From NCBI GenBank assembly GCA_004296815.1, contig SCVT01000309.1, positions 1 through 28,394 of the forward strand: a stretch of DNA of 28,394 nucleotides, given 5' to 3'. Source of the DNA: Reyranella sp. Its GTDB lineage: Bacteria; Pseudomonadota; Alphaproteobacteria; Reyranellales; Reyranellaceae. This document shows, in pieces, positions 24,217-24,626 of this stretch. The position numbers and the translations under genes were made by a program. Position 1 is the stretch's first letter, and every line of letters begins with the position of its first letter. The notes under the pieces are model-generated. The model did not search any database, was not told the origin of the DNA, and saw nothing but the letters and a program-made list of their open reading frames with translations.

Positions 24217-24296
24217 GCGATCTTTGGCAAACGCCTCCATTGTTTGCTGGCCCGTTCGCGGGCATTTCTGGAACATCGAAGTCCGTGGAGACAGTG

Positions 24297-24362
24297 ATGT
24301 CCCAGACCCCTTCCGCGCTCTTGCGCCCGCTGAAATCGTGTCGATGCGGCATGTGCCGCTGA
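24297..24362 (+). CDS. Cys-containing leader peptide upstream of the sulfate transport operon (candidate)
   Basis: A 21-codon ORF with a good ribosome-binding site: GGAG at 24287-24290, six bases before ATG. Its C-terminal third reads KSCRCGMCR and then TGA, so three Cys codons (TGT, TGC, TGC) fall within six codons. It lies 75 bases before a small gene that is overlapped by sbp, the start of the sulfate uptake operon. Cys is the end product of sulfate assimilation, so ribosome stalling at Cys codons would report sulfur shortage. Cys-rich short ORFs with such a role have been described in mycobacteria. Three Cys in 21 is well above expectation for random GC-rich sequence. Whether the peptide is made, and in which direction control works, is not known. 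Confidence 0.6.
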   Translation: MSQTPSALLRPLKSCRCGMCR

Positions 24363-24428
24363 CACTTTCACGTCTGAATTCCTGAGCCAACGACCGGCCG
24401 CCTCCCGAAGGAGTGCAGGGACCGGAGG
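24346..24428 (+). promoter_or_regulatory. Competing RNA structures between the Cys leader and the next gene
   Basis: GCGGC (24346-24350), inside the Cys codon cluster, can pair with GCCGC at 24355-24359 or with GCCGC at 24397-24401. CCTCC (24401-24405) can pair with GGAGG (24424-24428), the Shine-Dalgarno of the gene at 24438. Its CTCC (24402-24405) can instead pair with GGAG (24410-24413) in a local hairpin with a CGAA loop, leaving the Shine-Dalgarno free. Ribosome position on the leader could choose between these forms. The stems are short and I did not compute energies. Confidence 0.4.
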
Positions 24429-24437
24429 AGTGGAGCC

Positions 24438-24626
24438 ATGTCCGAACCCTTCATAGTCGAAATCTGGGGCGAGCCTGCTGGCGTCGTCCTGCGCGAAGGC
24501 AACGCCTATCGCTTCCATGCCACTGCGCGTCCGTTCTTCGAGCTGGACGGCACGCAGTTCACCACGCCGGGCCACGCGCGACTCGCCGCTGTCCGCCTCA
24601 AGCGTAACGTCGGGGTGCGGCCATGA
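24438..24626 (+). CDS. Small uncharacterised protein at the head of the sulfate operon
   Basis: A 62-residue protein of no family I can name. It starts MSEPFIVEIWGEPAGVVL and continues with a pattern of short strands and a helix (YRFHATARPFFELDG, then HARLAAVRLKR). There is no signal peptide, membrane segment or Cys. GGAGGAG stands seven bases before the ATG. The TGA overlaps the sbp ATG (ATGA at 24623-24626), so sbp is probably translated by coupled ribosomes. It may be a small regulator or partner of sulfate uptake, or mainly serve to couple leader control to sbp. The strong ribosome-binding site and the tight overlap support that it is real. Confidence 0.7.
   Translation: MSEPFIVEIWGEPAGVVLREGNAYRFHATARPFFELDGTQFTTPGHARLAAVRLKRNVGVRP

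Follow-up and report, generated by a model that had tools for sequence, protein, structure and literature searches.

The Sulfate Transport Locus and Its Leader

The window, by which is meant the whole 28,394-nt stretch of Reyranella sp. DNA that was analyzed, ends in a set of sulfate transport genes, and a short open reading frame with three Cys codons lies ahead of them (Table 1). This leader ORF has 21 codons and a TGA stop at 24360-24362, as read from the sequence; its Cys codons are found at 24339 (TGT), 24345 (TGC) and 24354 (TGC), spaced as C-R-C-G-M-C with none of them contiguous. An earlier note on this DNA had described a GGAG-preceded ORF of this length ending in KSCRCGMCR, which can be read directly at the locus as it was claimed, and had placed the Cys codons within a small hairpin, which is borne out as a predicted MFE fold. 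The note had also assigned the leader to a sulfate import operon. That part holds insofar as sbp, cysT, cysW and a putative ABC ATPase do follow, the ATPase frame leaving the window at its end (28394), but the Shine-Dalgarno sequence (SD) that the note had in mind (24424-24428) serves a 62-aa ORF that overlaps the start of sbp at 24623, and not sbp itself.

Table 1. Features of the leader region and of the genes behind it, with positions in the window.
Feature	Position	Strand	Basis
Upstream element TTTGGCAA-N8-ATTG	24223..24242	+	motif matches in relatives
Leader Shine-Dalgarno GGAG	24287..24290	+	sequence; 6-nt spacer to ATG 24297
Leader ORF MSQTPSALLRPLKSCRCGMCR*	24297..24362	+	sequence; recurs in relatives
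Hairpin with Cys codons and leader stop codon	24338..24365	+	MFE prediction
Pre-SD inverted-repeat region	24394..24428	+	predicted; -4.2 kcal/mol in window, weak
Shine-Dalgarno GGAGGAG of next gene (GGAGG 24424-24428)	24424..24430	+	sequence
62-aa ORF, first gene behind leader	24438..24626	+	no Pfam/NCBIfam family
sbp, sulfate ABC transporter substrate-binding protein	24623..25660	+	TIGR00971 E 3.9e-139
cysT permease	25657..26514	+	TIGR02139 E 2.3e-122; start read from sequence
cysW permease	26501..27349	+	TIGR02140 E 5.1e-122
Putative ABC ATPase, cysA position	27346..28394	+	open frame; GPSGSGKTT and LSGGQ by eye

Since the leader recurs in relatives, the sequence comparison indicates that it is more than a chance reading frame. 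Neither the window, which has no Rfam match at gathering score, nor the leader peptide, which has no NCBIfam match, falls into a known family by these searches. The ATG preceded by GGAG is a putative initiation signal found in the window and some relatives, and the stretch GGAGACAG at the leader SD is common to the window, L085-L089, L092 and L102; six leaders have no obvious SD (L096, L097, L237, L359, L360 and L363). Farther upstream, the TTTGGCAA-N8-ATTG element may be the promoter of the module or a site at which an activator binds. A perfect 12-bp inverted repeat, GCGCTTCGGGGG/CCCCCGAAGCGC, occupies 24185-24216 between a TctC gene and the module, and perhaps marks the end of the upstream transcript.

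Conservation Ahead of sbp

A match to sbp is present in 28 of the 76 genomes of the order, that is, in Reyranella and its kin; among named records, the sbp most similar to that of the window comes from Reyranella. With one fragment (L111) and the genome_contigs duplicates left out, 29 sbp loci have readable upstream DNA, and at 18 of these a Cys-codon leader precedes sbp or the 62-aa ORF in front of it. The earlier note had staked its proposal on the Cys codons being conserved upstream of sbp in related genomes, and by this count they are. The 11 leaderless loci comprise L090, L095, L098 and L110 together with seven copies of 50-65% identity (L103-L109). Two genomes, G036 and G052, have sbp without a leader, yet carry one on cysH or on a TauE/SafE gene. 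Upstream of the leaderless sbp of L098 there is an Rrf2-family gene (Pfam match), and L090 and L110 look alike by eye; a different control may have replaced the leader at these three loci.

The 62-aa ORF has matches in 55 of the 76 genomes, and many of its copies adjoin other genes, where they have neither a leader nor a pre-SD hairpin.

A Module Shared by Sulfur Genes

Across the order, 36 Cys-codon leaders were collected from 30 of the 76 genomes by motif, CysH and 62-aa ORF searches, by an RNA model built from 21 modules and by reading of gene context; L338, whose leader stops early, was left out of this number. They precede sbp in 18 cases, cysH in six (one via the 62-aa ORF), an SsuA-family-like (ssuA-like) transporter in three, TauE/SafE in two, metY in two, an SfnB-like gene in one, mgtC in one and a 108-aa ORF in three. 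The CysH, CysD, TauE/SafE, MetY and MgtC identities are family matches on one or two copies each, and the SsuA and SfnB assignments lie below the NCBIfam cut-offs. The genes that would be regulated (sbp, cysH, cysD, TauE/SafE and metY) import or make cysteine or a precursor of it, the exceptions being the four of 36 modules before mgtC and the 108-aa ORF, which have no recognizable sulfur role. The 108-aa ORF is itself conserved where Cys leaders precede it (L359, L360 and L363), and the copy that was searched, from L360, has no Pfam or NCBIfam match.

The upstream element provides a partly separate route to the same set of loci. The motif TTTGGCAA-N8-ATTG was matched 26 times in the 76 genomes, against one match for a reversed-pattern control. 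In sixteen of these 26 cases a Cys-codon ORF and then a sulfur gene follow shortly after the motif, two lie before a leaderless 62-aa ORF and eight are elsewhere; 13 of the 16 are the sbp loci that had served to define the motif and are thus not independent. The three sulfur loci newly found with it (two cysH, one TauE/SafE) all contain a Cys-codon ORF. A loose CR-type DNA pattern matched all 76 genomes and was useless for finding leaders.

The cysH genes show apparent losses of the module. Twelve cysH loci lie away from sbp by coordinates, and six of them have a leader. At L338 the leader is kept but its third codon is a stop, and at L252 and L254 the surroundings are module-like and hold no Cys codon; all three look like natural losses in genomes with an intact sbp leader. 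L242 and L257 lie behind the apparent end of a cysA frame, and nothing was seen upstream of L266. That the sulfate operon has a Cys-codon leader can be regarded as well supported at the level of sequence, given its conservation before sbp and its recurrence with further sulfur genes.

Cys Codons in a Variable Leader

The leaders vary in length from 6 to 30 residues, and their N-terminal residues and C-termini vary as well, while Cys persists, as would be expected for a leader that acts in cis. The presence of Cys in all 36 is no test of this, the modules having been found in part by searching for Cys codons. The choice of codon is more informative: in 33 of the 36 leaders, the Cys codon reached first by the ribosome would be UGU, a rare codon, and UGU makes up 58 of all 96 leader Cys codons. 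By comparison, UGU accounts for 2 of 39 Cys codons in 13 presumed genes of the window and for 14 of 121 in 24 cysH frames. The Fisher p values for this bias overstate its significance because the leaders are related by descent.

The number of Cys codons per leader ranges from one to five with varying spacing. Six leaders have a single Cys (L096, L100, L237, L276, L352 and L256), and in L096, L256 and L352 the leader stops directly after one UGU. At the other extreme, the two metY leaders (L327 and L328) end in RCCCCA or RCCCCCRA, and runs of four to five Cys are found in those two only. In 28 of the 36, an Arg or Lys comes directly after the first Cys.

Predicted RNA Hairpins

Two hairpins accompany the leader. 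The one that contains the Cys codons and the stop codon has, in the window, an outer arm pair GTGTC/GACAC (24338-24342/24361-24365) and an inner pair GCGGC/GCCGC (24346-24350/24355-24359), and as modeled it is likely the counterpart of a stop-codon hairpin seen in relatives. In an alignment of 13 relatives chosen for this hairpin type, the window not among them, 90.2% of cells were paired, versus 13.7-43.1% when the alignment was slid. The covariation score for these 13 chosen relatives was reached in 7 of 500 shuffles; of its components, the value for cells changed on both sides was reached in 6, that for pairs changed on both sides in 154 and that for further pair types in 486. The aligned copy of L093 is the second, downstream one of a repeat, the leader end of this locus containing the GTCGGTTCCCCTGAACCGAC-like stop-codon hairpin element twice in tandem. 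Of the stop hairpins of 30 modules, 14 reached -7 kcal/mol or lower, and 14 were more stable than expected from shuffled sequences at 0.05.

The second hairpin lies before the next gene, with its 3′ arm ending at the SD. In the window, CCGG at 24394-24397 can pair with 24422-24425, CTCC/GGAG form a pair within 24402-24413 and CCTCC at 24401-24405 is complementary to the SD. Stability of -7 kcal/mol or lower was predicted for this hairpin in 22 of 30 modules, a number that includes 11 of the 15 modules followed by a 62-aa ORF, and in none of 47 leaderless copies of that ORF.

A Model for Cysteine-Responsive Control

Taken together, we consider it probable from these sequence comparisons that the ORF is the regulatory leader of a cysteine-responsive, ribosome-mediated attenuation system common to a set of sulfur operons. 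We infer that the ORF is translated, that ribosomes stall on it and in which direction control runs: when Cys-tRNA is scarce, the ribosome would slow or stop at the leader Cys codons and expression of the downstream sulfate operon would rise, and when cysteine is ample, the ribosome would complete the leader and the downstream genes would be kept low. As the module precedes other sulfur operons in relatives, ribosomes would then serve as a common cysteine sensor for the operon set.

How a stalled ribosome might be coupled to the next gene can be envisioned as translation attenuation. The SD of the next gene would be paired with a pyrimidine-rich stretch just 5′ of the first Cys codon, and would be freed when a ribosome that has stalled at the Cys codons covers this stretch. 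The 24-nt segment that ends at the first Cys codon was predicted to pair better with its own SD than with swapped ones (p 0.0096 for 35 of the 36 modules and p 0.0024 for 29 of 30, L237 being left out of the pairing tests as too short), but with 26 representatives the difference was not significant (p 0.12). The segment from the first Cys codon to the stop gave p 0.55 in the same own-versus-swapped comparison. Measured against shuffles, leader-SD complementarity had a mean z of -0.54 and was negative in 21 of 29.

Folding models of the switch gave mixed results. Mean SD accessibility across modules was 0.20 in the free RNA, 0.29 with a ribosome stalled at the first Cys codon (Wilcoxon p 0.005) and 0.20 with a ribosome at the stop codon (p 0.011), in a model that leaves the RNA upstream of the ribosome free to pair, a choice that matters. 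Against a shuffled pre-Cys control, the gain in the stalled state had p 0.095 (28 modules). An earlier model that cut the RNA at the ribosome (18 sequences) found no consistent change in SD accessibility. A cruder cut-RNA model of 30 modules put the stalled state above the ribosome-free state in 18 and below it in two, and the finished state above the stalled state in nine and below it in two. For the window, the corresponding values are 0.28 free, 0.26 stalled at the first Cys codon and 0.28 at the stop codon. The earlier note had suggested that downstream segments hide or expose the SD at 24424-24428, and indeed the CCTCC stretch at 24401-24405 can pair with it, but the modeled stall leaves accessibility in the window unchanged. 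The SD-exposure switch is accordingly put forward as a weakly supported lead, with a modest predicted effect across modules and none in the window. A pairing of the 2:3 antiterminator kind was also considered and dropped, there being no covariation for it.

Competing Explanations

Cysteine could also be sensed by the same leader with a different outcome, namely transcription attenuation, in which the passage of RNA polymerase through the 53-115 nt between the leader stop and the next start would depend on translation of the leader, via Rho or a pause hairpin. Rho entry sites tend to be C-rich and G-poor, and so is the leader before its first Cys codon (C 48%, G 15%); two hairpins accompany the leader; and outside the order, L184 has a leader with six Cys followed by what by eye is a strong GC hairpin and TTTT. 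A Rho-linked uORF has been reported in Bordetella (PMC9426467), which also counts on this side. An intrinsic terminator, however, is absent from the window, with no terminator-like site in 24140-24640, and T runs of five or more between the leader stop and the next start are found in two of the 36 modules; what follows the hairpin is the SD and a start codon. Transcription attenuation in place of SD control is, in our judgment, possible but rather unlikely.

A second alternative holds that the block TGTCGACGCGGC...GCCGC is a DNA- or RNA-binding site or a structural element, and that the ORF across it is incidental. Most sbp modules share the nucleotide sequence of this block, many can fold it into a small hairpin, and L352 and L256 keep the GCGGC/GCCGC hairpin though the ORF stops after its first Cys, as L096 nearly does. 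This is difficult to square with the metY modules, L100 and L237, which have Cys codons without the GCGGC/GCCGC block, or with the retention of the rare UGU at the first Cys codon. The ten different start-to-Cys distances point the same way, if weakly, since in-frame position was a selection criterion. We consider an incidental ORF improbable.

The last alternative, that the peptide works in trans as a small protein that binds metals or thiols with its Cys residues as ligands, takes its appeal from the resemblance of CRCGMCR to a metal site and from the Arg or Lys after the first Cys, but the varying number and spacing of Cys, the leaders with a single Cys beside the stop, the missing NCBIfam match and the UGU bias and linked hairpins, which point to the codon or RNA level, make it very improbable.

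A SAM-II-Like Element Upstream of Some Leaders

In eight modules (L083, L084, L101, L288, L289, L327, L328 and L343), a stretch reading GATTTGA...GCTTGC...GCTAAAG starts 86-89 nt before the leader start and resembles the SAM-II/SAM_alpha riboswitches (RF01726, RF00521); it is absent from the window. Three copies were scored with SAM_alpha, giving 29.6 bits for L327 (E 2e-5 in a 131-base search), 20.6 for L211 (the L101 locus) and 20.0 for L338, all below the Rfam gathering score of 36, and a gathering-level Rfam scan of 20 loci found none. By eye, the element could form a GGAGC/GCUCC pseudoknot into which a hairpin is inserted.

These observations allow a wider reading, which we hold tentatively and somewhat doubtfully: a ribosome-run cysteine regulon in this alphaproteobacterial lineage in which, for part of the set, a SAM-II-like riboswitch before the leader start adds SAM to cysteine as the second input of a gate. 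SAM would decide, via the riboswitch, whether the cysteine-sensing leader is translated, so that the target of the riboswitch would be a leader peptide. Where the riboswitch was lost, as in the window, the cysteine half would be retained.

Relation to Known Attenuators

In the classical amino acid attenuators (trp, his), codons for the amino acid that the regulated pathway makes occur in a leader peptide gene, and hairpins follow it. The leader in the window is like them in both respects; unlike them, it is followed by no terminator hairpin in the window and shows no covariation for a 2:3 antiterminator.

Cys-codon uORFs that control mycobacterial genes are attributed to Canestrari et al. (2020). 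Cys-codon leader peptides in mycobacteria, to which the earlier note referred, are indeed described: polycysteine leaderless short ORFs lie before several cysteine genes and act by stalling-based translation attenuation (PMC9031893, PMC13236596, PMC9094748). The leaders of the Reyranella order are similarly short Cys-codon ORFs ahead of several cysteine or sulfur genes. The differences are that the window leader has its own SD-like GGAG upstream of the ATG, which argues against a leaderless mRNA, that Cys codons in the Reyranella order are mostly separated, with long runs in the metY leaders only, that most modules have a predicted hairpin adjoining the next SD and some are preceded by a SAM-II-like element, and that the host is an alphaproteobacterium.

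The earlier note had named no alphaproteobacterial equivalent. One exists in the form of uORFC-8-2, which Brewer et al. (2021, PMC8632094) describe as an attenuator with Cys codons upstream of cysS in Rhodobacterales, so this claim stands for sulfate transport and no further: among the open-licence literature matches listed, none reports a Cys leader before sulfate transport or cysH. Like the window leader, uORFC-8-2 is alphaproteobacterial and has conserved Cys codons within a stem. Its tandem Cys codons are usually codons 14-15 and mainly UGC, whereas UGU dominates the first Cys of the Reyranella-order leaders; it has an intrinsic terminator with a U run, of which the window offers no counterpart in the region scanned for terminators; and it is found before cysS only, whereas the leaders described here precede the 62-aa ORF with the sulfate transporter and genes of sulfur uptake and assimilation.

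Ribosome-sensed cysteine control has been described for cysS in one alphaproteobacterial order and for mycobacteria. If the proposal is true, a second alphaproteobacterial lineage would use it for a group of operons for sulfur uptake and assimilation, in an architecture of its own that may be linked in series to the sensing of SAM. The 36 leaders, the natural losses and the leaderless control set also constitute comparative material for testing by what means a start site at a distance is opened when a ribosome stalls.

Candidate Leaders Outside the Order

The RNA model R1 matched 9 of 289 genomes of the class at E <= 0.001, and three of these are of the genus Reyranella; the other six matches have E values of 3.7e-5 to 8.4e-4, and a short-ORF scan found Cys-containing short ORFs in L401, L402 and L404. 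Among 80 genome_contigs sbp loci, scanned for at least two Cys in the last 12 residues, convincing leaders were found in five (L002, L003 and L005-L007), titled Reyranella apart from L003, which is titled Alphaproteobacteria bacterium. Scattered other Cys ORFs, e.g., in L020, were seen among these loci.

A scan for three Cys in 50 class sbp loci, the window included, found close-upstream leaders in the window and L184 alone. The latter comes from another alphaproteobacterial family and has a 28-codon ORF ending in CGTCRCC, with six Cys, behind GAGGAGG (about 1097-1183), some 170 nt before the apparent sbp start. The long GC hairpin and TTTT seen by eye after this leader were not flagged by the terminator scan, and Rfam gave no match. 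L184, which stands alone in that its family and order are represented by one genome in the set, is perhaps, to judge from its sequence, an independent, terminator-type cysteine attenuator.

A short Cys ORF was also seen at eight of 30 class metY loci, but none of the eight is convincing. Two of these metY loci, L371 and L372, contain by eye a classical SAM-II-like stretch.
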